DNA from: Bryobacterales bacterium
GTDB taxonomy: Bacteria > Acidobacteriota > Terriglobia > Bryobacterales > Bryobacteraceae
Direction: 5' to 3'
DNA: 12,498 nucleotides
Assembly (NCBI GenBank): GCA_003132905.1
Contig: PKZC01000453.1
Coordinates: 6,360-18,857 of the forward strand
The position numbers and the translations under genes are program-made. The notes beneath the pieces were generated by a model. The model had not been told where the DNA came from. It did no database searches and saw only the letters and a program-made list of their open reading frames with translations. Below are positions 1 to 12,374 of this stretch, piece by piece; position 1 is the first letter of the stretch, and each line of letters starts with the position of its first letter.

Positions 1-296
1 CCATGGGAAAGATTGTCCACCACTGCCCACTCCTCGGCCACTCGTATCGGATCGTGCAGCGGCAGCACCACGCTGCCCGCGCGGATCTGCACATTTTCAG
101 TAATCATCGCCAATGCTGCGCTAGTTATGGCCGGGTTCGGAAACTGGCCGCCGAACGCATGAAAGTGCCGTTCCGGAGTCCAGATGGCGGTGAATTTATT
201 CCGGTCGGCGAATTTGGCGCCTTCGAGCAGCAGCTTGTACTTGTCGCCGTTATCGCGCTCGTCGCTGGCGAAATAAAACAGGCTGAAATCGAGAGA
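1..296 (-). other. Luciferase-like monooxygenase (MupA/Atu3671-type) domain inserted in the NRPS adenylation domain
   Basis: Residues about 677-774 of the NRPS match the N-terminal part of the natural-product luciferase-like monooxygenase family. Visible are DFSLFYFASDE (679-689), KYKLLLEGAKFAD (695-707), FTAIWTPERHFHAFGG (711-726), PNPAIT (729-734) and IRAGSVVLPLHDPIRVAEEW (747-766). Members are FMN-dependent TIM-barrel oxygenases and are known to occur as domains inside NRPS or PKS proteins. It begins about 36 residues after A4, so the A domain is split between A4 and A5. The rest of the barrel, and whether A5-A10 and a carrier domain resume after it, lie beyond the window. The oxidised position in the product is unknown. 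Confidence 0.88.
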
Positions 297-2324
297 ACGG
301 TCTCGGAGTCCCGATGCATCCGGCGGGCTGGGCAACTGCCGATTATCCTCTTGCAGAACGATTTTAAAACCGCGAGCCAGGGTCCAGAAAAGCTCCAGGA
401 CGGAGATGTCGAAAGAGATGCTGGTGACAGCCAACCAGGTGCCGGGAGCGTCTTCACCGAAGCGCTGGTCCATTGCGGTGAAAAAGTTCGCCACGTTCCG
501 GTGGCTCACCATTACGCCCTTCGGTTTGCCTGTCGAACCCGACGTGTAGATCACATAAGCGAGGCTTTCACTCGATACTTTCCCGCTCAACCGACCCCGG
601 CTGCATTTTTCAAGCGCGGCGCGCTCGGCGTCCAGGTAATCTTGCGTCAGGACTATCCCAGCGTGTGCGTCGGAGAGTACATACTTCAGGCGCTCGGCCG
701 GATAAGACGGATCAACGGGCACGTAAGCGGCGCCCGCCTTCCATGTGCCCAGCAATGCAACCATCAGATCCAGAGATCGCTCCATCGAGATCGCCACCCG
801 ATCTCCGGCTTGCACGCCTTTGGATCGCAGCAGGTGCGCCAGTTGATTCGCCCGGGCATCCAATTCCTGATACGTCAGGCTTTGATCGCGAAACACGACC
901 GCGGTGGCTTGCGGGGATCGATCTACTTGCTGCTCGATCAATTCGTGGATTCGCTTGTCACGGGGATAATCAGCCTGGGTATCGTTCCAGAGTTCCAGTT
1001 GACGTTGCTCCCCGGCAGTCAGGAGGGGCAAGCTCGACAGAGGGCCATCCACGCCGCTCGCCATCGCCTGGATCACGGTCTCCAAATGCCCCAACATACG
1101 CTGGATGGAAGCAGCATTAAAACGCTCCCGATCGTAAGCCAGCCGCAGCGTTAAAGTGGCGCCTGCATAGGCGTACAACGTCAGCGGATAATTGGTGCGC
1201 TCTAGGAGTTGAACCTGCCGATGGCTCCAGTTCCCACCCTGGGACTGCATCTTCGAATTGAGATCGTAATTGTCAAAGACCAGGATGCTTTCAAACAACG
1301 GCGAGCCGTGCGGCGCTTCGCTCCAGGCTTGAATGGATGCCAAAGGAGTGTGTTCGTACTCTCGAACGGTCGCCTGTGAGGCGCGAATTCCTTTTAGCCA
1401 CTTGGACAGAACTTGGTCGCCGTCAAGGTGGACACGTACCGGAAGCGTATTGATAAACGCGCCCACCCTCTCGGCGGCGTCGGTGCTAAAACTTCGGCAG
1501 GCGCGCGTTGCACCAAACACTACGTCGTTCGATGCCGTGTAGCGGCTCAAGATCAAGGCCCAAGCGCCTTGCACGATCGTGTTCAGCGTGATTTCCTCGC
1601 GCGTGGCCCATTCCCGCAATGCCTGCGTGGTGGCGGCGCAAAGGCTGATTTCCTGCTCGCCACGGCCGGATTCGCCTGCCTGCAGCGGGTCCATGGCCGG
1701 TATCGGATTGGGCAGGACGAAGCCCCGCAGATATTCCTTCCAAAATCGCTCTGCTCTGGATAGATCGAGCGTATCCAGCCACGCGATGTATTGGCTGTAC
1801 GGCCGCGGTGTTGGAAGCTGGATTTCGACGCCCGCACGATGGCTATCGTAGAGCGCGAACAACTCGTTCAAGACGATCGGAAACGAACGGCCGTCTAATA
1901 TCGCATGGTGAAAGGTCCAGACCAGTTGGAAGGCAGCACCGCTCAGTTGAAACAGGGAGAAGCGGCACAACGGCGGAGTGTCGAGCGCAAAACCGGCCCT
2001 TCGATCTTCTTCGAGGAAGCCATCCAGGTGCGCGCGCTGCGCTTCCGATGATAGAGCGGTCAGGTCGGTGGTCGAAAAGAAAGGCTCGACGCCCGAAGAA
2101 ACTCGCTGCATCGGCTGCGCCAGGCTTTCCCAATGAAAACTGGTACGCAGCACATCATGCCGGTCCACTAACTTCTGGCACGCATCCCGGAGAGAACCGG
2201 CATCAACAGCCTGGTCGAAAGTGCATGCTAACTGTTCGATATCCACACCCGAATGTCCATCCTGGATGTGGTGAAAGAGCATGCCCTCCTGGATCGGCGC
2301 TAAGCGATACCACGCTGAGTGCAT
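1..2324 (-). CDS. Nonribosomal peptide synthetase, C-A module with luciferase-like monooxygenase insertion (partial, runs off left edge)
   Basis: The first 774 codons of a large NRPS are visible and the 3' end lies outside the window. A condensation domain begins almost at once: motif LAPIQEGMLFH at residues 8-18, RHDVLRTSF at 55-63, catalytic HHAILDG at 139-145 with both His and Asp intact, and VGAFINTLPVRV at 287-298. An adenylation domain follows with A1 (LTYQEL, 483-488), A2 (LGTWKAGAAYVPVDPSYP, about 525-542), A3 (YTSGSTGKPKG, 593-603) and A4 (FDIS, 638-641). From about residue 677 the sequence becomes a luciferase-like monooxygenase domain instead of continuing to A5. The enzyme should condense an upstream acyl or peptidyl group with an activated amino acid in the cytoplasm; the amino acid cannot be predicted because most of the specificity pocket is missing. 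ATG 2322-2324 is the first start after an in-frame TAA just upstream. No Shine-Dalgarno is evident. Domain identity is secure; product and chemistry are unknown. Confidence 0.95.
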   Translation of the reverse strand, partial: MHSAWYRLAPIQEGMLFHHIQDGHSGVDIEQLACTFDQAVDAGSLRDACQKLVDRHDVLRTSFHWESLAQPMQRVSSGVEPFFSTTDLTALSSEAQRAHLDGFLEEDRRAGFALDTPPLCRFSLFQLSGAAFQLVWTFHHAILDGRSFPIVLNELFALYDSHRAGVEIQLPTPRPYSQYIAWLDTLDLSRAERFWKEYLRGFVLPNPIPAMDPLQAGESGRGEQEISLCAATTQALREWATREEITLNTIVQGAWALILSRYTASNDVVFGATRACRSFSTDAAERVGAFINTLPVRVHLDGDQVLSKWLKGIRASQATVREYEHTPLASIQAWSEAPHGSPLFESILVFDNYDLNSKMQSQGGNWSHRQVQLLERTNYPLTLYAYAGATLTLRLAYDRERFNAASIQRMLGHLETVIQAMASGVDGPLSSLPLLTAGEQRQLELWNDTQADYPRDKRIHELIEQQVDRSPQATAVVFRDQSLTYQELDARANQLAHLLRSKGVQAGDRVAISMERSLDLMVALLGTWKAGAAYVPVDPSYPAERLKYVLSDAHAGIVLTQDYLDAERAALEKCSRGRLSGKVSSESLAYVIYTSGSTGKPKGVMVSHRNVANFFTAMDQRFGEDAPGTWLAVTSISFDISVLELFWTLARGFKIVLQEDNRQLPSPPDASGLRDRSLDFSLFYFASDERDNGDKYKLLLEGAKFADRNKFTAIWTPERHFHAFGGQFPNPAITSAALAMITENVQIRAGSVVLPLHDPIRVAEEWAVVDNLSH

Positions 2325-2389: not shown

Positions 2390-3637
2390 CTACTTCCTGT
2401 TTCCAGTGTAACTCATCCTCCAGATCCTGCGGCCGGCATCGTCGGAGATCAGCAAGCTGCCATCGGGCAATTGCAATAATCCCACTGGCCGCCCCCAGAC
2501 ATCCTGGGCGTCCGGAGAGAGCATCCAGCCTGTTACAACCTCCCGGACAGCGCCGGCCGGCTTGCCGTTGTGAAAGGGCAGGAAGCCCACCGAGTATCCA
2601 ACTCGTTTGGAGCGATTCACCGAGCCATGGAAAGCCACAAACGCACCGCCCCGGTATTCAGGAGGGAACTGCTGGCCCGTGTAAAAGAGGATGTCGAGGG
2701 GCGCTATGTGCGATCCCAGCAAGACGTCGGGAGTGATGGTCGACGCCACCAGCTTAGAAATCTCCAGCGTCTGCGACAGCCCGCCGGGATGGCGCAACAG
2801 ATGTTCCATGAGTTTGGCGCCCGAATTCCAGGGATCGGCATGCGGACCGATGTAGGCGTAAGGCCAGCCGTAAAATCCTTTGGGCTCGACATGCGTTAAA
2901 TAATCGGGGACCAGGTCGTCGCCTAAATCGTCACGTTCCTGCACCGAGGTCCACAACGTATCGGTCCCCGGATACCACCGCAGCGCCACTGGGTTCCGCA
3001 GACCCGCCGCGAAGATTTCAAATCCCGATCCGTCGGGATTGTAGCGGGAAATTGTGGCGCGACGCGGGTCTTCTCCTAGGTTGTCGTTGGAACCAGAGCC
3101 GATTCCGAGATAGAGCTTCGCTCCCTTGCGGTCGAACAGTAGGGTACGGGTGCGGTGAAAACCTCCCTGGCCTTGGAGCGATATGATTTCCTGCCCCTCG
3201 CCCACCGACATTGCGTGGGCGTTGAACTTATATCGCTTTACCGACTCGGGTTCTGAAACATACAGATAATCCTTCCAAAACGCGAGCCCGTAAGGACGGT
3301 CCAGGCCAGTGATTAAAGGCTTTCTCTGGTTGGGCGGCGAAAGCACATAGACCGTCCCGTCTGGCTTCGTCGCGCTGTCGCTGATCAAAACTTCTCCGCC
3401 TGGCCCTAAAGCCATAAACCGGGGAATGTGGAAATCCTCGGCGAACACTTCGATCCGGAAGCCGCGGGGAACTTGCAATGTAACGCCCGAGGGTTGAGGT
3501 ACGATTTTCGGAAAATTGTAGACGGAAGGTGTGGCGTAGGGAGCCGCTAATTGCGGCTCGGTTCCGGCGTCGGAGACGAACGCACATCCCAGCAAGACGG
3601 CGGCCGGCAAGAATTTCAGCGACCTAGGCGGTCTCAC
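2390..3637 (-). CDS. Secreted PQQ-type glucose/sorbosone dehydrogenase-like beta-propeller protein
   Basis: The 415-residue protein fits the glucose/sorbosone dehydrogenase (GSDH, L-sorbosone dehydrogenase) six-bladed beta-propeller family, whose members oxidise sugars or aldoses in the periplasm with PQQ. An N-terminal hydrophobic segment (about 8-20) with LLGC at 15-18 indicates export and could be a lipobox. Blade features are GGEVLISDSAT (80-90), GLDRPYGLAF (111-120), FHRTRTLLFD (160-169; a conserved His-x-x-Arg appears in this position in the family), LYLGIGSGSND (175-185), GLRNPVALRW (212-221), GFYGWPYAY (254-262) and the closing GRPVGLLQLPDGSLLISDDAG (382-402). There is no fused cytochrome c domain. 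The start is a GTG (3635-3637) chosen because it gives a complete signal peptide; no strong ribosome site precedes it. The substrate is not predictable. It lies 65 nt after the repeat-protein gene and 65 nt before the NRPS, probably in one transcript. Confidence 0.85.
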   Translation of the reverse strand: MRPPRSLKFLPAAVLLGCAFVSDAGTEPQLAAPYATPSVYNFPKIVPQPSGVTLQVPRGFRIEVFAEDFHIPRFMALGPGGEVLISDSATKPDGTVYVLSPPNQRKPLITGLDRPYGLAFWKDYLYVSEPESVKRYKFNAHAMSVGEGQEIISLQGQGGFHRTRTLLFDRKGAKLYLGIGSGSNDNLGEDPRRATISRYNPDGSGFEIFAAGLRNPVALRWYPGTDTLWTSVQERDDLGDDLVPDYLTHVEPKGFYGWPYAYIGPHADPWNSGAKLMEHLLRHPGGLSQTLEISKLVASTITPDVLLGSHIAPLDILFYTGQQFPPEYRGGAFVAFHGSVNRSKRVGYSVGFLPFHNGKPAGAVREVVTGWMLSPDAQDVWGRPVGLLQLPDGSLLISDDAGRRIWRMSYTGNRK

Positions 3638-3702: not shown

Positions 3703-4686
3703 TTACTTTTGCGCTTGAGGCCGCAGCCTGCTCTTACGCTGCTGAAAAGCCGCTGTCACCGAAGCCATTTCCGGACCAGTGAGCAATGAGGGATCGCACG
3801 ACGGCAGTCCCTTTTTGCAGGCCTCCACATTCCGGCTTCGAAAGCCGGCGCGGGTTGCGTTCAGATCCGATGGTTGCAGCTCGAGGGGTTGGCAATTCGC
3901 GAGTCCATCTCTACAGGCCGCCTGGTTGCGCCGCTCAAAGGTGGTCCGCACCGCCTTGGCTTCGGCTGGTGTCAGTAAGGTGGGATCGCAGCTGAAGAGA
4001 CCATCCTGGCAATGCTCCAAGTTACGTCTTGCGACCGCGACTTTTACCACCGACGCTTGGGTGGCATTCAGCTGTAGCGGATCGCAGGTGGGAGAGCCCT
4101 CATTGCAGCGCTCCAAATTGCGGCGGAGCGATGTGGTCTGGACGGCCTTGCTTTGAAGCGGAGTCAGGCGGGTTGTATCGCAGGTCGCAGAACCTTCCAG
4201 GCACTTGTCGTAGTTCCGTTGTTCCGAAGTCTTGTGAAGCGCGTCGGCGTCCTTGGAGGTCAGTAATAAAGGTTCGCAGGTGGGCGAGCCGGTATCGCAT
4301 TTTGTCAGATTCCGGCGGTAGCGAGCCGCCTGGACCGCGTTCGCCTCGGCCGGGGCAAAGCGGGTGGGATCACACAGCGTCGAACCCTCCATGCAGGAAT
4401 CGAGGTTCTTTTTCTTCGAAACCTGGGACACTTGCTTGATTTCGTCTGGACTGAGGGCCGAAACGTCGCATCCCGACAATCCATGCAGGCAGTTGTCCAG
4501 ATTCGAGTCGCGCGGAGTCTCGCCTGGTTTGGGCTTAGACTTCGCCAAGGGCTTGGACTGGGGGCTCGACTGGGCCGCTTCAGCAGCCCCGAGCATCGCC
4601 AGGCTCAGGCCGAACAGGCCCAAACCGCATCCAATGCCTAAACCGCATCCGAGGAAGCCAAAAAAGAGGGTCGGCCGAACCAGCAT
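3703..4686 (-). CDS. Exported protein of eight 32-residue Cys-pair repeats, function unknown
   Basis: I do not recognise a named family for this 327-residue protein. Residues 1-39 are a glycine- and leucine-rich export signal with a plausible cleavage site after AEAA (about 35-38). A short Lys/Pro/Ser linker (39-61) follows. Residues 62-317 are eight tandem repeats of exactly 32 residues with no insertion or deletion, ending in a basic 10-residue tail. Each repeat has the pattern N-x3-C-x2-G-x3-C-(D/E/Q), then a hydrophobic residue at 17, often LTP-x-(E/Q/D) at 17-21, and usually Arg-Arg or similar at 31-32. All sixteen repeat cysteines are present. In the periplasm or outside the cell each C-x6-C pair could form a disulfide, and the second half of each repeat looks helical. 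ATG 4684-4686 is preceded by a weak GAGAGA. It is the first gene of the leftward set. A binding or structural role is a guess. Confidence 0.8.
   Translation of the reverse strand: MLVRPTLFFGFLGCGLGIGCGLGLFGLSLAMLGAAEAAQSSPQSKPLAKSKPKPGETPRDSNLDNCLHGLSGCDVSALSPDEIKQVSQVSKKKNLDSCMEGSTLCDPTRFAPAEANAVQAARYRRNLTKCDTGSPTCEPLLLTSKDADALHKTSEQRNYDKCLEGSATCDTTRLTPLQSKAVQTTSLRRNLERCNEGSPTCDPLQLNATQASVVKVAVARRNLEHCQDGLFSCDPTLLTPAEAKAVRTTFERRNQAACRDGLANCQPLELQPSDLNATRAGFRSRNVEACKKGLPSCDPSLLTGPEMASVTAAFQQRKSRLRPQAQK
3736..4503 (-). repeat. Eight tandem 96-bp coding repeats (32 residues each)
   Basis: The coding DNA for residues 62-317 divides into eight units of exactly 96 bp, 768 bp in total. The protein units start at residues 62, 94, 126, 158, 190, 222, 254 and 286. 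Asn at unit position 1, Cys at 5, Gly at 8 and Cys at 12 are invariant in all eight. Other positions differ substantially between units, so the array is old and maintained by selection rather than recently duplicated. Confidence 0.92.
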
Positions 4687-5006: not shown

Positions 5007-5351
5007 GTGGCCGTATTGAAACCCAGGGAACGACTAGTGTATTTCCGAGTTTCGGAAGATGAATTCCGTCAATTTGTGAGCGTGTGCGAGCAAGCCGGCG
5101 CCCGCAGCGTGTCGGACTTGGCCCGCAATGCGGTGCAGCGATTGATCGCCGAAGGTCAGAAACAGCGCGACGGAAATGAACTTGAAGAAAAGATGCAGGT
5201 GCTCGAGCGTCTTATAGCTGCTGTGACCGAACAGTTACAGCTATTGTCGAGTCAGAGCAGGGAAACGGCGGTAGCGGCTCTGCCCCGCGGCGCCGAACGG
5301 TTCTTTTGGGAAACCAATGGAACGGATCAAAACAGTCGGAGAGAAGAATAA
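5007..5351 (+). CDS. Small ribbon-helix-helix-type protein with coiled-coil tail, putative regulator of the polysaccharide operon
   Basis: This 114-residue protein has a short strand (LVYFRV, 10-15), a helix (SEDEFRQFVSVCEQAG, 16-31), a turn and a second helix (SVSDLARNAVQRLIAEG, 34-50). That is the beta-alpha-alpha pattern of ribbon-helix-helix DNA-binding domains, which dimerise and insert the paired strands into the major groove. Residues 57-85 are rich in Glu, Leu and Gln with heptad-like spacing and probably form a coiled coil. The tail is polar. It is the first gene of the rightward operon and its stop is only 2 nt before the next ATG. Control of its own operon through the upstream element array is an attractive inference. 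An alternative is a small partner of the adjacent kinase. The fold call is by pattern only. Confidence 0.7.
   Translation: MAVLKPRERLVYFRVSEDEFRQFVSVCEQAGARSVSDLARNAVQRLIAEGQKQRDGNELEEKMQVLERLIAAVTEQLQLLSSQSRETAVAALPRGAERFFWETNGTDQNSRREE
5338..5346 (+). promoter_or_regulatory. Ribosome binding site that supports the ATG start at 5354
   Basis: GGAGAGAAG lies at the end of the preceding gene, 7 nt before ATG 5354. It favours this start over the in-frame ATG at 5306, which overlaps the preceding gene by 46 nt and has no purine-rich site. Confidence 0.75.
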
Positions 5352-5353
5352 CC

Positions 5354-7636
5354 ATGCGACTCCTTTCAAGCGGCCCGGATGACCCCATGAACGGCCTGGT
5401 GCATGACGACCGTCCGGTATTTCCAACCATCGCTCGCCAGCCTTATATCTTGCCGAACGGCAACGAGGAGCCGGAGCCTCCGCAAACATTTGATGTTCTG
5501 GCGTTGGCGCGGAGATACTGGCTGCTGCTGTTTTTGTTTCTGATTCTCGGCGCGGCGGCCGGATTTGCTTCTGTCGTCCTCAGCTCCCCGATGTACAAGA
5601 CCCTGCTGTTGATGGAGGTTCAAAGCCCCAACAGCGCTCTAACAACCCCCGGGGTGGCGCCGGCCAGCGCCGAGACCAGCGAGGTGGACATTCAGACGCA
5701 GGTGAACATCCTGCATAGCGAGACCTTTTTACGGCGCGGCGCTGAGCGGATGCAATCGGAAACGGTGCCGCTTGCGCCCACCGGCAGAGACATCTTTTCC
5801 CGTCTGCGCCAGCGCATCCATCCTGTCACGCAGGATCCTTTGGAGGCTGCCAGGACCGGTCTGCTGGTGGCAGTGGGTACATTTGAAGCGCGGCCTGTCA
5901 CCCGCACCCGTCTGATCGAACTCAGCTGCGAATCCACCAGCCCGGAAGTGGCCGCGGAATTCTTGAACGCCATGGCGCAGGAGTTTGTCGACGACACCTC
6001 CCATTCCCGCATCCAGACCGCGCAGAAGACCAGCGAATGGCTGGCCGCCCAGATTGAAGAAACCAAATCGCGCGTTCAGGAAGCAGAAGAGAAGTCGCGC
6101 GATTTCGTGCAGGCTTCCGGCAACGTATTCGCGGGACAAGACGCCACGCTCGACGATACGAAACTGGCGCAGCTCAAGGGTGAACTCGCCAAAATTCAAA
6201 ATGAACGGATAGCGCGGCAGACTCGCTACGAGCTGACCGAGCATAACGCGCCCGAAACGCTGGCCGAAGTGCTGGACGATCCGACGCTGCGGGGCTACAA
6301 GGCGCAACTGGAGACGCTCAAACGCGACCGCGCGGTGCTCACTATCACTTACACTGCGAAAAACGAGAAAGTTCAAAAGATCGACGCGCAGATCGCCGAG
6401 ATTCAGAAGTCTTACGACAGCCAGCTGTCCAGCACCGTAAAACGCATCCGGAACGATTACGAAGCGTCCTTGCGGCAGGAGAAATTGCTGGTCGGCGCCT
6501 ACGATTCGCAATCGCAGCGGGTGGGATCGGAAGCCAGCAAGACCGCCCAATACAATTCACTGAAGCGCGAGGTGGACACCCAACACCAGATGTACCAGAC
6601 GCTTTTGGTGCAACAGAGCCAGGCCAACCTGAGCAGCTCCGTACCCATTAATCCGATCCGGATTGTGGAGCAGAGCAATCCGCCCGAAGAGCCCTATAAA
6701 CCCAAGCCTATCCTGAACATCTCTTTGGGCACCCTGTTTGGCGTGGTGCTGGCGGGTGGCATCGTTTTCCTGAGAGAGCGGATGGATCGCAGCATTAAGA
6801 ATCCAGGCGCTTCGCGACGGCTCTTCAACGCGCCGGAATTAGGCGTGATTCCCAATCTTGGTTCGAACGGAAATATGGTCGCCAAGGTGAACGGACACGG
6901 AGCCAAAGGCGTGCTGCTGAATGGCGCTCACGACGATTCGACGGCGCTAGCCACCTGGCAGAGCGGCCCGGCGTTTATTACCGAGTCGTTCCGCGGAACC
7001 CTGGCGTCGATTCTTCGGAATCAGGCGTCCAACAAGAATCAAAAGATGATTCTGATCACCAGCCCCGGACCCGCGGAGGGGAAGACCACCGTGGTGCAAA
7101 ATCTGGGCATCGCCCTGGCCGAGTCCGGCCGTAAAGTGCTGCTGGTGGACGCCGATTTTCGACGGCCGCATTTGCATAGAAAATTCAGCCTGCCGAACGA
7201 ATGGGGGCTTATCGACGTCCTCTGCGACGACCGGCCCTTGAGCGAGTACTCGCCCGAACAGATGGGTGTATTTACCGGATTCCCCGGCTTGTCCATTCTC
7301 CCCAACCGGGTCACCCACCACAACATATCCAAAGCGCTTTACTCGCCGCGGCTCAGAACTATCCTGGACACGCTGGTGCATCGTTACGATATGGTGATCG
7401 TGGATGCCCCGCCGATCTTGAGCGTGGCCGACACGCGCATCGTGGCATCGCTCACCGATGCGATTATTTTAGTTCTCCGGTCCGGCGTCACACAGCGCGA
7501 TGCCGCCATGGAAACTTACCAACTCATTCAAGAAGACGGCTTGACGCTACTCGGTACGGTGCTGACGGATTACGATCTCACCAGCGACCGCCGTCGGCAG
7601 TACTACTACGATTATGGCGATCCCACTCGAGCATAA
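5354..7636 (+). CDS. Polysaccharide co-polymerase fused to a BY-type tyrosine kinase (Wzc-like)
   Basis: The 760-residue inner-membrane protein sets polysaccharide chain length and couples it to tyrosine autophosphorylation. After a soluble N-terminus, TM1 spans about 55-76 (YWLLLFLFLILG...). A long periplasmic region with extended helical, Glu/Lys/Gln-rich stretches (about 200-410) leads to the proline-rich NPPEEPYKPKP (about 442-452) and TM2 (about 453-474), the usual Wzz arrangement. The cytoplasmic kinase has Walker A GPAEGKTT (572-579), Walker A' VLLVDADFRRP (595-605) and Walker B MVIVDAPP (680-687). The C-terminus ends in a tyrosine cluster, YYYDY at 750-754, the expected autophosphorylation site. 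Size and single-chain architecture resemble proteobacterial Wzc more than the split forms. It begins 2 nt after the preceding gene and overlaps the exosortase gene by 23 nt. The architecture is certain; the polymer it controls is not known. Confidence 0.93.
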   Translation: MRLLSSGPDDPMNGLVHDDRPVFPTIARQPYILPNGNEEPEPPQTFDVLALARRYWLLLFLFLILGAAAGFASVVLSSPMYKTLLLMEVQSPNSALTTPGVAPASAETSEVDIQTQVNILHSETFLRRGAERMQSETVPLAPTGRDIFSRLRQRIHPVTQDPLEAARTGLLVAVGTFEARPVTRTRLIELSCESTSPEVAAEFLNAMAQEFVDDTSHSRIQTAQKTSEWLAAQIEETKSRVQEAEEKSRDFVQASGNVFAGQDATLDDTKLAQLKGELAKIQNERIARQTRYELTEHNAPETLAEVLDDPTLRGYKAQLETLKRDRAVLTITYTAKNEKVQKIDAQIAEIQKSYDSQLSSTVKRIRNDYEASLRQEKLLVGAYDSQSQRVGSEASKTAQYNSLKREVDTQHQMYQTLLVQQSQANLSSSVPINPIRIVEQSNPPEEPYKPKPILNISLGTLFGVVLAGGIVFLRERMDRSIKNPGASRRLFNAPELGVIPNLGSNGNMVAKVNGHGAKGVLLNGAHDDSTALATWQSGPAFITESFRGTLASILRNQASNKNQKMILITSPGPAEGKTTVVQNLGIALAESGRKVLLVDADFRRPHLHRKFSLPNEWGLIDVLCDDRPLSEYSPEQMGVFTGFPGLSILPNRVTHHNISKALYSPRLRTILDTLVHRYDMVIVDAPPILSVADTRIVASLTDAIILVLRSGVTQRDAAMETYQLIQEDGLTLLGTVLTDYDLTSDRRRQYYYDYGDPTRA

Positions 7637-8525
7637 GCCGGTCGAAGGCGCGGTTACGCCGGCCGCGCCATCAATGACCGTTCATACGGTGCCAGCCATT
7701 CAGGCGCTGGCACTCGGCGCACTACTCGTTGTGGCCTTCTGGCCGGTGTTAGTCGGCATCTACGGAAGCTGGTTTGACGACCGTGCCTATATGGAGCACG
7801 GCATCCTGGTGGTCCCGGCCGCGGCTTACATGGCATGGGCGAAGCGGGACAAATTAGCGGCGATTTCACCGGCCCCGTCCAGGTGGTGGGGTGTGGGCCT
7901 GGTGGCGTGGGGCGCTGTGCAAGCCCTGTTGGGCACGCTGGGACAGTGGGCGTGGGCGAGCCGGATGGCGTTCCTCATTTCCTTCGTCGGTTGCATCATC
8001 CTGGTCTATGGTTTTCGGATGCTGAAGGAGCTCACGTATCCTTTATGCACCCTGCTTTTGATGATCGCCCCGCCGAGTTTCGTTTTCGAGCGCCTCACCT
8101 TACAGCTCCAGTTGCTGGCCAGCCGGTTAGGGGCCGCCGCCCTGGAAGCGCTCGGCTACTCGGTTCTGCGCGAGGGCAACGTCCTTGAGATGGTGGGCAT
8201 CAAGCTGTCGGTGGAAGAAGCCTGCAGCGGAATTCGATCATTGGTCGCCATTGTGTTTATGTGCGTGCTTTACAACTACTTCTTCGTCGAAAAGAAGTCC
8301 ATGCGGGTTTGGATACTGCTGCTGGCGATTCCCATCGCCATTCTGGGAAACGCGGTCCGCATCATCGCCACCGGCGTCGCGGGCCAATATAATCACGCCT
8401 GGGTGAGTGGCGCGACGCACGAGGCTTTTGGCTACGTCAGTGTGCTCGTAGCCGCGGCCGGTTGCATCGGCGTCCACATGGCGCTGTTGGGCTTTGAAAA
8501 GATGCGGGAGGCTCGTCATGCTTGA
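7614..8525 (+). CDS. xrt: Exosortase, integral membrane transpeptidase-like protease
   Basis: This 303-residue protein has about eight hydrophobic segments (around 28-50, 61-76, 90-106, 113-133, 138-155, 205-226, 232-256 and 272-295). It carries the exosortase signature: EEACSGIRSL with catalytic Cys204, PIAILGNAVRIIATG with Arg249, and HEAFGY with His269. Exosortases recognise C-terminal sorting signals (PEP-CTERM and variants) on secreted proteins and cleave or transfer them at the membrane; their genes usually sit in exopolysaccharide loci, as here. ATG 7614 lies inside the end of the kinase gene with no clear ribosome site, suggesting translational coupling. ATG 7674 is an alternative that would remove 20 residues without touching the membrane core. 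The subtype (XrtA or another) cannot be fixed by eye. It overlaps the following EpsI gene by 8 nt. Confidence 0.92.
   Translation: MAIPLEHKPVEGAVTPAAPSMTVHTVPAIQALALGALLVVAFWPVLVGIYGSWFDDRAYMEHGILVVPAAAYMAWAKRDKLAAISPAPSRWWGVGLVAWGAVQALLGTLGQWAWASRMAFLISFVGCIILVYGFRMLKELTYPLCTLLLMIAPPSFVFERLTLQLQLLASRLGAAALEALGYSVLREGNVLEMVGIKLSVEEACSGIRSLVAIVFMCVLYNYFFVEKKSMRVWILLLAIPIAILGNAVRIIATGVAGQYNHAWVSGATHEAFGYVSVLVAAAGCIGVHMALLGFEKMREARHA
8506..8511 (+). promoter_or_regulatory. Ribosome binding site that fixes the EpsI start at 8518
   Basis: GGGAGG lies 6 nt before ATG 8518-8520, inside the end of the exosortase gene. It favours this start over the in-frame ATG at 8494, which would add eight residues. 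Confidence 0.75.
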
Positions 8526-9216
8526 TTCAAACTCTGAGAATCCCAAAGCGAATGTGCTGCGTTCGGCGCTGAAGGTCTGGCTGCTACCCGTGGTCGCCAT
8601 ACTGGCCGCGCAGGGAGCAGCCATGCATGTTCTTTCGATTCCGGAGAAAAATCTGGTCATTCCTCAGCTGGCTAACGTTCCCAGCCAGCTGGGGGCATGG
8701 AAAACCGTCTCGGAACAATCGCTCGACCCGGACGTCCAGGCTTATCTGAGGCCGGATTCTTACATCCTGCGCGATTATGCGAATCCGCAAACGGGCAGCA
8801 CGGTGAATGTGTTCGTAGCGTATTTCAAGTCTCTGCAAAGCGGCTATGGTCCGCATTCGCCGGCAGTCTGTTTACCGGGGAACGGATGGCTGGTGCACGA
8901 GCAAAAGCTTATCAATCTTTCTGTTCCGGGCCGCGATGCCGGCATCACGGTAAACAAGTTCATTCTGGAAAAGGCGGACCAGCACATCCTGGTGCTCTAT
9001 TGGTATCAAAATGACCGCAATGTATGGGCCCAGGAGATCCAGGGAAAAATCAGGTTGATTCCCGACTTGATTAAATACAAGCGGTCCGACGTCAGCTTGG
9101 TTCGGTTGGTTCAGCCCCTGCGCGGCGACGATGCCAGCGGGGCGCTTCCGGAGCTAAAGCAGTTCACCAACTCGCTTTTTCCGGCGCTCTCCGAGGATTT
9201 CCGCCGAGCCGACTAG
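8518..9216 (+). CDS. epsI: EpsI family exosortase-associated protein
   Basis: The 232-residue protein belongs to the EpsI (DUF3485) family, found fused to or next to exosortases. Residues about 19-40 form a single membrane anchor or uncleaved signal, leaving a periplasmic domain. The family hallmark GYGPHSPAVCLPGNGW is at 109-124, with His113 and Cys118. Other expected elements are the early LGAWKT (57-62) and VLYWYQN, well after the hallmark. The biochemical role of EpsI is poorly defined; co-occurrence points to a role with exosortase or in polymer export. It overlaps the exosortase gene by 8 nt, and the next gene starts 12 nt after its stop. Confidence 0.9.
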   Translation: MLDSNSENPKANVLRSALKVWLLPVVAILAAQGAAMHVLSIPEKNLVIPQLANVPSQLGAWKTVSEQSLDPDVQAYLRPDSYILRDYANPQTGSTVNVFVAYFKSLQSGYGPHSPAVCLPGNGWLVHEQKLINLSVPGRDAGITVNKFILEKADQHILVLYWYQNDRNVWAQEIQGKIRLIPDLIKYKRSDVSLVRLVQPLRGDDASGALPELKQFTNSLFPALSEDFRRAD

Positions 9217-9228
9217 CGGCGGCGTTGC

Positions 9229-10470
9229 ATGCGAGTGGTCTATCTCAATCCGTCCGGCCAGATGGGCGGCGCCGAAATGAGCTTGATGGATTTACTCGCG
9301 AGCATGCGCGCGGCCGAGCCGGGCTGGGATTTTTGGGTGGTGCTGGGCGAAGACGGTCCCTTGGCAGGCCAAGCAAGGGCCGCGGGTGCGCAGGTGATCC
9401 TGTCGCCGTTCCCTCGCGCACTGGCGCGATTGGGCGACTCCGGAAGCGGTCCGCTGCGCGCTTTGTGGTCTTGTTTCAAAGCGATGCCCGGAACCATGCG
9501 CTACGCCTCCAGCCTGCGCCGGACTTTGAAGGAATTGCAGCCCGACATCGTGCACACCAATGGATTCAAAATGCACGTCTTGGGTGCTTGGGCGCATCCT
9601 GCAAACACCCCTGTCGTCTGGCACGTGCGGGACTACGTCAGCACGCGGCAACTGATGAAGCGGCTACTGCGCATGCACGCCGGACGCTGCGCGGCAGCCA
9701 TCGGAAATTCCGAAAGCGTCGCCAGGGACATTCAGAAGGTCTGCGGTCCCCAACTTGAGACGCTGTGCGTCTATAACGCGATCGACCTGAAGCGCTACTC
9801 GCCGATGGGCGAAAAGATGGATCTCGATTCTCTTGCCGGTCTCGAGCCGGCGTCCCCGAACACGGTCCGCATTGGGCTTGCAGCCACGCTGGCCCATTGG
9901 AAAGGGCATGCGGTATTTCTACGGGCGCTGGCGCGGCTGCCCCAGGATCTTTCCTGCCGGGCTTACGTGATCGGGGGACCGATCTATCAAACGGACAATA
10001 GCCAGCGCACGCTGGACGAGCTGCGCGCCTTGGCCGCCGAACTGGGAATCGCAGATCGGGTGGGCTTCACTGGCTACGTTGCCGACACCGCCTCAGCGAT
10101 TCGCGCCCTCGACATCCTGGTTCATGCCAGTACCCAGCCTGAGCCTTTTGGCCGCGTGATCGCCGAGGGCATGGCTTGCGGCCGCGCGGTGATTTGCAGC
10201 GCCGCTGGTGGCGCCGCTGAATTGATCGCCGACGGAACGGACGCGCTGGCTCATCCACCAGGCGACGACGCGGCTTTAGCGGAACGCATCGCCGAACTGG
10301 TGCGCGATCCCGAACTGCGGGCCCGCTTGGGGCGAGCGGCGAGAATCACCGCCGAGCGACGGTTCGAACGCAGCCGATTGCCGGAAGAAGTGATCCCCCT
10401 GTATCAACGCCTCCGCGGGGCTCTCGCACCGCAACCGGAAGCGAGTTTGACTGGCGCGGTGACACGATAA
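9229..10470 (+). CDS. GT4-family glycosyltransferase
   Basis: The 413-residue cytoplasmic protein has the GT-B fold pattern of retaining family 4 glycosyltransferases. The N-terminal domain opens with a strand and a glycine loop (MRVVYLNPSGQMGGAEMSL, 1-19) and has IVHTNGFK (107-114). The C-terminal donor-binding domain has IGLAATLAHWKGH (about 223-235), the strand-loop VGFTGYV, and the E-x7-E motif EPFGRVIAE with Glu305 and Glu313. It should add a sugar from a nucleotide-sugar donor to a lipid-linked oligosaccharide during polysaccharide repeat-unit assembly. Donor and linkage cannot be read from the sequence. It lies 12 nt after epsI and shares one base with the next gene (TAATG, 10468-10472), implying coupled translation. 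Confidence 0.92.
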   Translation: MRVVYLNPSGQMGGAEMSLMDLLASMRAAEPGWDFWVVLGEDGPLAGQARAAGAQVILSPFPRALARLGDSGSGPLRALWSCFKAMPGTMRYASSLRRTLKELQPDIVHTNGFKMHVLGAWAHPANTPVVWHVRDYVSTRQLMKRLLRMHAGRCAAAIGNSESVARDIQKVCGPQLETLCVYNAIDLKRYSPMGEKMDLDSLAGLEPASPNTVRIGLAATLAHWKGHAVFLRALARLPQDLSCRAYVIGGPIYQTDNSQRTLDELRALAAELGIADRVGFTGYVADTASAIRALDILVHASTQPEPFGRVIAEGMACGRAVICSAAGGAAELIADGTDALAHPPGDDAALAERIAELVRDPELRARLGRAARITAERRFERSRLPEEVIPLYQRLRGALAPQPEASLTGAVTR

Positions 10471-12374
10471 TGTGCGGAATTCTTGGAGCTATCGGTTCAA
10501 ATGCGCCGCAGATGACCGAGCGCGTGATAAGCGCCGCCAATCTGATGAGTCATCGTGGCCCGGACGATTGGGGCACCTACACTGACGACTATGCCGCGCT
10601 CGGGTTCCGCCGGCTCTCCATCATCGATCTTTCGCCGGCCGGCCATCAGCCCATGGTGAGCAAGGACGGCAACACCGTCCTGGTTTTTAATGGCGAGATT
10701 TACAACTACCTGGAGCTGCGCAAAGAGCTGGAGCCGAATTTTCCGTTTTCTTCCCAAACCGATTCCGAAGCGCTGTTGAACGGATATCGGGCCTGGGGAT
10801 GGGAAAAGCTTCTCGAACGCATCGATGGCATGTTCGCCTTTGCCATCTGGGACAAACGCGCGCGGCGCATCCACCTGGCTCGCGATCGGGCAGGGAAGAA
10901 GCCGCTTTTTTACGCGCACGTAGGCGGACAGCTGTTGTTCGCATCGACGCTGAACTCCATTTTGGAGCTGCATCGTTCCAAGCCGGAGATTGACCCCAAG
11001 GCCATCGACGCTTATCTGGTATACCAGGCGGTGCCTGCGCCCCTGACAGCATTCCAGGGCGTGAAGCAATTGCCGCCGGCGCACCAGCTCACCTTCGACG
11101 TCGACACGCAGAAGCTCAAGATCAATCGATATTGGGACGTACAGTATACGCCGAAGCTGAAGCTATCGGAAGAAGAACTGCTCGAAGAGCTGGATGCTCG
11201 TCTGCGGCGGGCCGTCCGCCAGCGCCTGATGAGCGACGTGAAGCTGGGCGCATTTTTATCGGGTGGCGTGGATTCCAGCCTGGTGGTGGCTCTCATGGCG
11301 CAGGAAATGCGCCAGCCCGTGGAATCGGTGGTGATCGGATTTGCCGATCCGGCGTTCGATGAACGGCGTCACGCGCGCGCGGCGGCGAGGCATCTCAACG
11401 TCAACCTGTACGAGCACGAACTCCCGGTCGACGCCCTCGACACGTTGCCCGAGATCATCTGGCATTACGGCCAGCCGTTTGCCGACCCGTCCATGGTGCC
11501 TACCTACTATGTCGCCAAGTACGCGCGCGAGCATGTCACCGTAGTGTTGAATGGTGACGGCGGCGACGAATTGTTCGGCGGTTACTCGCGGCCGGTGGTG
11601 GCGCGGGCCGCGGCGCCGTACAAGAAGTTAGTTCCCGCCGGAATCCGGCGCTCGGTGGGCGACTGGTTTGCTGGGACGCAAAATCCGATGCTGCGCAAGG
11701 CCAGCCTGCTGGCGCGGGCCGGGCAATACGACGGCTATCGTGGATTTCTCTACGAACGTGGTTTTCAGGAATATCGCGACCTGATGTATACCGATGCGTT
11801 TCGCGCCGAGACCGCTTCAGTCGCTCCCAGCGAATACTATCGCGCGGTTTGGGAGCAGGCCGACGGCTGCGACGACGTCGATCGCGTGCTGTGCCTTGAT
11901 TTCAAGACCTATTTACCCGACCAATTGCTCACCAAGATGGATGTGTCCACCATGGCGCACAGCGTGGAAGCGCGGTCGCCTCTGTTGTCCAAAGAGCTGA
12001 TCGAATTTGCGGCCCTGATTCCGGCTTCCCTGCGTCTGCGCGGCTACAACACCAAATATCTTTTGAAGAAGCTGGCGGCGCGCTATGTGCCGCCCGAAAT
12101 CGTCTATCGCAAGAAGCGCGGCTTCGTCATGCCGATTTCAGGCTGGCTGCGCGGCGAACTGGCCGGAAGCATGCGAGCGGTGTTGCAGAGCCGTTCTTTT
12201 GTCGAACGCGACTGGATTCGTCCAGACTCCGTCAATCGCATGATCTCTGAGCACGCCAGTGAGCAACGCAACTGGAGCGAGCAGCTCTGGACGCTGTTCG
12301 TTCTGGAACTGTGGGCGCGGACAGCTTTGGATAATACCTTGGACCGCGATGTGCCTCTGCACGCGGTGGCTTAA
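10470..12374 (+). CDS. asnB: Asparagine-synthase-like glutamine amidotransferase, exosortase/polysaccharide-locus type
   Basis: The 634-residue protein has both halves of glutamine-hydrolysing asparagine synthase. The N-terminal class II glutaminase has nucleophile Cys2 (MCGILGAIG), SHRGPDD, FNGEIYNY and TDSEAL. The C-terminal ATP-pyrophosphatase domain has the PP-loop SGGVDSS at 264-270 and NGDGGDELFGGY at 361-372, then KMDVSTMAHSVEARSPLL near 490-510. It releases ammonia from glutamine and transfers it to an adenylated carboxylate. Enzymes of this size in exosortase loci form a recognised group (exosortase-associated amidotransferase 1) thought to amidate sugar carboxylates rather than make asparagine, and the location between two glycosyltransferase genes fits. 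Acting on free aspartate cannot be excluded. The start codon overlaps the preceding stop by one base and the next gene begins 2 nt after its stop. Confidence 0.9.
   Translation: MCGILGAIGSNAPQMTERVISAANLMSHRGPDDWGTYTDDYAALGFRRLSIIDLSPAGHQPMVSKDGNTVLVFNGEIYNYLELRKELEPNFPFSSQTDSEALLNGYRAWGWEKLLERIDGMFAFAIWDKRARRIHLARDRAGKKPLFYAHVGGQLLFASTLNSILELHRSKPEIDPKAIDAYLVYQAVPAPLTAFQGVKQLPPAHQLTFDVDTQKLKINRYWDVQYTPKLKLSEEELLEELDARLRRAVRQRLMSDVKLGAFLSGGVDSSLVVALMAQEMRQPVESVVIGFADPAFDERRHARAAARHLNVNLYEHELPVDALDTLPEIIWHYGQPFADPSMVPTYYVAKYAREHVTVVLNGDGGDELFGGYSRPVVARAAAPYKKLVPAGIRRSVGDWFAGTQNPMLRKASLLARAGQYDGYRGFLYERGFQEYRDLMYTDAFRAETASVAPSEYYRAVWEQADGCDDVDRVLCLDFKTYLPDQLLTKMDVSTMAHSVEARSPLLSKELIEFAALIPASLRLRGYNTKYLLKKLAARYVPPEIVYRKKRGFVMPISGWLRGELAGSMRAVLQSRSFVERDWIRPDSVNRMISEHASEQRNWSEQLWTLFVLELWARTALDNTLDRDVPLHAVA

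Follow-up and report, generated by a model that had tools for sequence, protein, structure and literature searches.

A nonribosomal peptide synthetase module from a Bryobacterales bacterium with a luciferase-like monooxygenase inside its predicted glycine adenylation domain

The window analysed here, a stretch of 12,498 nucleotides from a contig of a Bryobacterales bacterium (PKZC01000453.1, positions 6,360 to 18,857), contains the 5' part of a nonribosomal peptide synthetase (NRPS) gene that, read from its sequence, is an intact glycine module interrupted by an oxygenase between adenylation motifs A4 and A5, a kind already described. We propose that this module, in which a luciferase-like monooxygenase (LLM) is embedded in the adenylation (A) domain between the condensation (C) and carrier (T) domains, probably loads glycine, joins it to an upstream chain and hydroxylates its alpha carbon by means of the embedded flavin-dependent LLM, with either amide cleavage or carry-on of the oxidised unit to follow. 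The anatomy, the single reading frame, the glycine code and the family membership of the module come directly from the sequence.

The minus-strand frame opens with ATG and stays open for 774 codons up to the window edge (Table 1). Motifs C1-C5 and A1-A4, for which we presume the usual names and consensus sequences of the C1-C5 and A1-A10 series, were all located and in order, as claimed in an earlier reading of the letters alone (hereafter, the sequence-only reading). The Pfam AMP-binding match (PF00501) covers residues 464-663 (E 5.4e-58), and residues 484-667 align to positions 1-201 of the adenylation profile TIGR01733. The LLM starts with LDFSLFYFASDE at residue 678 (window position 293), so that the distance of about 36 residues given earlier between FDIS (last residue 641) and the LLM is exact. 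Both Bac_luciferase (PF00296, residues 690-773, E 1.2e-13) and TIGR04020 (residues 680-774, profile positions 1-96 of 341) match here, in agreement with the suggestion of a MupA/Atu3671-type LLM inside the A domain after A4; the TIGR04020 score of 163.5 bits lies below the family cut-off of 244.45, the domain being truncated at the window edge.

Table 1 Features of the NRPS gene in the window
Feature	Window position	Strand	Basis or remark
NRPS gene, 5' part, C-A[LLM]-T module	3..2324	-	Open frame; 774 of 1419 codons; runs past left window edge
Condensation domain, residues 6-443	996..2309	-	Pfam PF00668, E 1.1e-86
Active-site motif HHAILDG of condensation domain	1890-1910	-	Motif location
Adenylation (A) domain, N-terminal part, residues 464-667, motifs A1-A4	324..935	-	PF00501, TIGR01733, motifs
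Motif A4 (FDIS), residues 638-641	402..413	-	Specificity residues 1-3: D, I, L
36-residue stretch from A4 to LLM, residues 642-677	294..401	-	Motif location
Luciferase-like monooxygenase (LLM) domain, first 97 residues (678-774)	3..293	-	TIGR04020 680-774, PF00296 690-773

A search with the related protein P0001 yielded a public protein of 1419 residues, P0241, which agrees with the window piece at all 774 residues and represents a cluster of 6 member sequences from 5 contigs. On this full-length protein TIGR04020 scores 511.8 bits, above its cut-off of 244.45, and spans profile positions 1-340 of 341 (residues 680-1017). TIGR01733, which the window piece leaves at position 201, is re-entered at position 205 in P0241, placing the LLM between A4 and A5. 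One frame holds PF00668, PF00501, PF13193 and PF00550, the content of an NRPS C-A-T elongation module, together with motifs A1-A10 and the carrier site GGHSL; the complete LLM followed by A5-A10 and a carrier in a single frame, which the sequence-only reading had named as support for its view, is thus present. An early stop or frameshift, or an assembly join near position 296, either of which would have undone that view, was sought and ruled out: P0241 continues the window without a break, P0242 (named Bryobacteraceae, 91.5% identical to the NRPS piece over 774 residues) and P0243 (92.2% over 760) align unbroken across the A4-LLM junction, GC content is even (0.577 in both 1-300 and 301-600), and A5-A10 and T follow in frame. 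With an identical protein in a cluster that spans several contigs and close relatives crossing the junction at 91-92% identity, a broken or falsely joined gene is extremely improbable.

The layout has thousands of relatives and is an established design, of which this gene is a real and ordinary example. Of the 7997 candidates scored in a first search, 6961 reached E 0.001 or lower; the relatives used below are the best 120 listed from each of two NRPS searches (~8000 scored candidates), with length limits that exclude long multimodular proteins. An A4-like motif precedes the LLM landmark PERHF by 60-120 residues in 119 of 120 best-listed relatives (P0020 being the exception by the pattern used), and a strict A4 pattern occupies the same place in 207 of the 216 relatives listed from both searches and is absent in 9. 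A scan of genome contigs yielded 80 loci, of which the best matched a segment at 54% identity; 16 of them hold 17 LLMs typed as A4-inserted, spanning Cyanobacteriota, Verrucomicrobiota, Bacteroidota, Pseudomonadota, Bacillota and Myxococcota. This typing assigned 27 of 81 LLM matches to A4, the 54 classed as 'other' comprising some in long frames, possibly missed cases, and weak fragments. Locus L041 belongs to genome G001; searches through 257 genomes from the order of G001, 399 from its class and 396 from its phylum (1052 in total, some repeated) gave no relative of P0241 above 62% identity.

In a tree of 83 LLM domains, built by a quick method with SH-aLRT support only, the A4 label required 4 changes compared with a shuffled mean of 27.4, and A4-inserted LLMs therefore cluster; that they do not emerge as a single clade counts against the proposed reading. 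P0241 groups with P0001, P0244 and P0249 (support 99). The tree omits L104, L106 and L108, which occupy the same places as L085-L087, and matches below 300 bits; its 13 P-numbered entries were labelled A4 without a pattern test, P0301 among them lacking the strict pattern, and its labels 'contained' and 'standalone' rest on frame length alone.

Two of the loci show further arrangements. The acidobacterial locus L104 (11704-18987) encodes a carbamoyltransferase, then a C-less A[LLM]-T unit and then an A-less C-T-thioesterase unit; its first A[LLM]-T may serve in starter loading. At L108 (10138-14772) a formyltransferase domain is fused N-terminally to A[LLM]-T, and hexapeptide-transferase and nucleotidyl-transferase genes adjoin; among the 216 best-listed relatives from both NRPS searches, 21 are annotated with PF00551. 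Around the NRPS gene itself, a weak Glucose/Sorbosone dehydrogenase match (PF07995, E 3.8e-10) lies on the same strand at window positions 2390-3637 (minus), 65 bases before the NRPS start. A 327-residue protein at 3703-4686 (minus) matches nothing in Pfam or NCBIfam at E 0.001, contains eight copies of a C..G...C[DEQ] motif at an exact spacing of 32 residues, and has a hydrophobic N-terminus that suggests export. Positions 5348-12374 carry an exopolysaccharide and exosortase run on the plus strand, opposite to the NRPS gene and separated from it by two minus-strand genes: a tyrosine autokinase-like chain-length protein, an exosortase, an EpsI-like protein, a group-1 glycosyltransferase and an asparagine-synthase-like amidotransferase. 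The last of these (10470-12374) shares 94% identity with P0121, whose cluster includes a member named as a Bryobacteraceae bacterium; judged from this relative and from P0242, the host probably belongs to the Bryobacteraceae (Acidobacteriota).

The A domain of P0241 carries a glycine code and probably selects glycine. The window itself shows only the D, I and L of the specificity code; the code of P0001, read by motif anchors under a position numbering that we take to be the standard one, is DILQLGMVW, and the same residues were read by eye from P0241. In excerpts of a 2025 survey, DILQLGMIWK is the code given for each of four MOX-bearing glycine domains (PMC12283262). The pattern DILQ[LMFIAV]G[ML][IV]W fits 163 of the 176 relatives that were fully anchored (40 of the 216 listed gave no complete code), while 10 have an unread position and 3 differ at one position. 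In the 16 named-genome loci, all 17 split A domains have D, I, L and Q and fit the glycine pattern, a full count reached because four odd codes proved to be misreadings. Uninterrupted A domains from these 80 loci served as a control: 19 of the 53 also have a glycine-like code, and the code alone is therefore no marker of oxidation. Position 322 is M in 172 of 176 LLM-split domains and in 6 of the 19 uninterrupted glycine-like ones, the other 13 having L.

Likened by description, the modules of myxothiazol and melithiazol, which we take to be the oxygenase-interrupted glycine modules MtaG and MelG, share with P0241 the A4-A5 oxygenase insert and the glycine A domain. In the available text of PMC10204066 their oxygenase separates A4 from A5 in an A domain for glycine, the glycyl alpha carbon is hydroxylated and the product is a primary amide. 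Their thioesterase is fused or encoded next, whereas P0241 has none fused; because the search for a fused thioesterase was negative, we do not class P0241 as a myxothiazol-type terminal amide-releasing module. SolF of solanimycin likewise has a flavin oxygenase inserted in a glycine A domain, and alpha-hydroxyglycine occurs in solanimycin B, but that insert is described as lying between a8 and a9 (PMC10204066, in part). P0241 is not of this A8-A9 interrupted type (SolF, methyltransferase type), since its A8 ends at residue 1221 and its A9 starts at 1271, with no insert in the 49 residues between. Corallorazine-like clusters, for which the portion of PMC11342130 at hand gives 38 pathways, also have an MOx within a glycine-recruiting A domain; they are reported from Serratia and Pseudomonas in a dipeptide pathway, whereas the present gene is acidobacterial. 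The puwainaphycin oxygenase domain of PuwE (PDB 6KET) has the same LLM fold as the predicted model of P0001 and belongs to the same family, the two being 50% identical with TMt 0.92 and an rmsd of 2.4, and a phmmer comparison of the PuwE oxygenase with the LLM of P0241 gave E 7.8e-117. PuwE differs in standing between PKS and NRPS modules rather than inside an A domain and in acting on an acyl chain, the step assigned to it giving a 2-hydroxy acyl chain (PMC4219810, as excerpted). A possible glycine oxygenase in microsclerodermin was not borne out by the accessible part of PMC6163206 and was not used.

The chemistry set out next, including when it takes place, where the flavin comes from and what becomes of the product, is our inference. 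The A domain would activate glycine and load it onto the T domain, and the C domain would join it to the chain delivered by an upstream carrier. The LLM would then hydroxylate the alpha carbon of the carrier-bound glycyl unit with O2 and reduced flavin supplied from elsewhere, and the resulting N-acyl alpha-hydroxyglycyl thioester would either break to a terminal primary amide and glyoxylyl-S-T, following the myxothiazol precedent, or be passed on. For glycine A domains with such inserts, alpha-hydroxylation or cleavage of the glycyl unit is described in the available sections of PMC10204066, PMC11342130 and PMC12283262, and glycyl alpha-hydroxylation by inserted oxygenases also in those of PMC9396620. 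The view in the sequence-only reading that the substrate of such domains is mostly unknown was thus too pessimistic for the A4-A5 site, the first three papers placing such domains in glycine A domains and P0241 and nearly all readable relatives having a glycine code; its proposal of an oxidation during chain assembly fits the evidence from the sequence. That reading also held that the gene is not tied to a described product, and none could be assigned here from the part of the cluster that the analysis covered. LLMs of this family in polyketide lines are assigned diverse oxidations, for example hydroxylation and chain shortening (PMC8739492, in the text at hand), and the LLM of P0241 might accordingly act on another substrate or position, or be inactive in a module that merely adds glycine. 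We consider this unlikely, since the full LLM scores at twice the family cut-off, many of its residues, PERHFH among them, are invariant across 48 relatives, and LLM insertion is strongly associated with glycine codes.

What becomes of the oxidised unit is weighed between release and extension. It is quite conceivable, if short of probable, that the module is terminal: the alpha-hydroxyglycyl unit would break, a primary amide would be released, and the glyoxylyl residue would be cleared from T by a thioesterase encoded elsewhere. This would be the outcome described for myxothiazol in the excerpted PMC10204066, and five relatives that are 64-70% identical over the window piece (P0247, P0249, P0250, P0251 and P0254) have a thioesterase directly after T, that of P0249 being seen by Pfam. 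Against release, P0241 has no thioesterase (no PF00975) and stops 41 residues past the carrier match, and a KS or C domain comes next in 11 of the 19 loci read from relatives. The same absence of a thioesterase agrees with extension, a possibility we advance tentatively, in which the oxidised glycyl unit would be carried on to a downstream C or KS domain. In 5 of the 19 loci (L002, L006, L007, L015 and L106) the next gene is a KS gene, in 6 (L009, L010, L011, L013, L014 and L104) a C domain comes next, either within the frame itself or in the gene after it, and a retained alpha-hydroxyglycine is described, albeit from an insert at another site (PMC10204066, in part). Extension is opposed by the closest thioesterase-bearing relatives, which end at that thioesterase; moreover, KS, C and thioesterase are all absent downstream in 4 of the 19 loci with flanks (L004, L008, L012 and L108), and in another 4 the frame leaves the stretch (L001, L003, L005 and L016).

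The downstream reading covers 19 loci, with L110-L112 and L115 left out; these are mostly distant relatives and therefore leave the fate for P0241 undecided. Among the 216 listed relatives, 160 are complete through the carrier domain; 131 of these end there, 25 continue into a thioesterase, 3 into a further C domain and 1 into a longer tail. Since more modules in this small set of loci have a KS or C domain next than have nothing, amide release may not be general. A bolder version of extension, which we hold to be doubtful, is that in the thioesterase-less Bryobacteraceae form the oxidised glycine would be a reactive internal alpha-hydroxyglycyl (N-acyl hemiaminal) thioester passed to a downstream C or KS domain, and that C-less relatives of the P0005 type would use this chemistry to make a glyoxylyl-type starter from glycyl-S-T. 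If this were true, A4-A5 LLM modules would be a general device for electrophilic two-carbon units, with amide release merely one outcome.

The gene adds an acidobacterial lineage to the known oxygenase-in-adenylation design, and it yields a prediction for the module: glycine would go in, and alpha-hydroxyglycine or a primary amide would come out.
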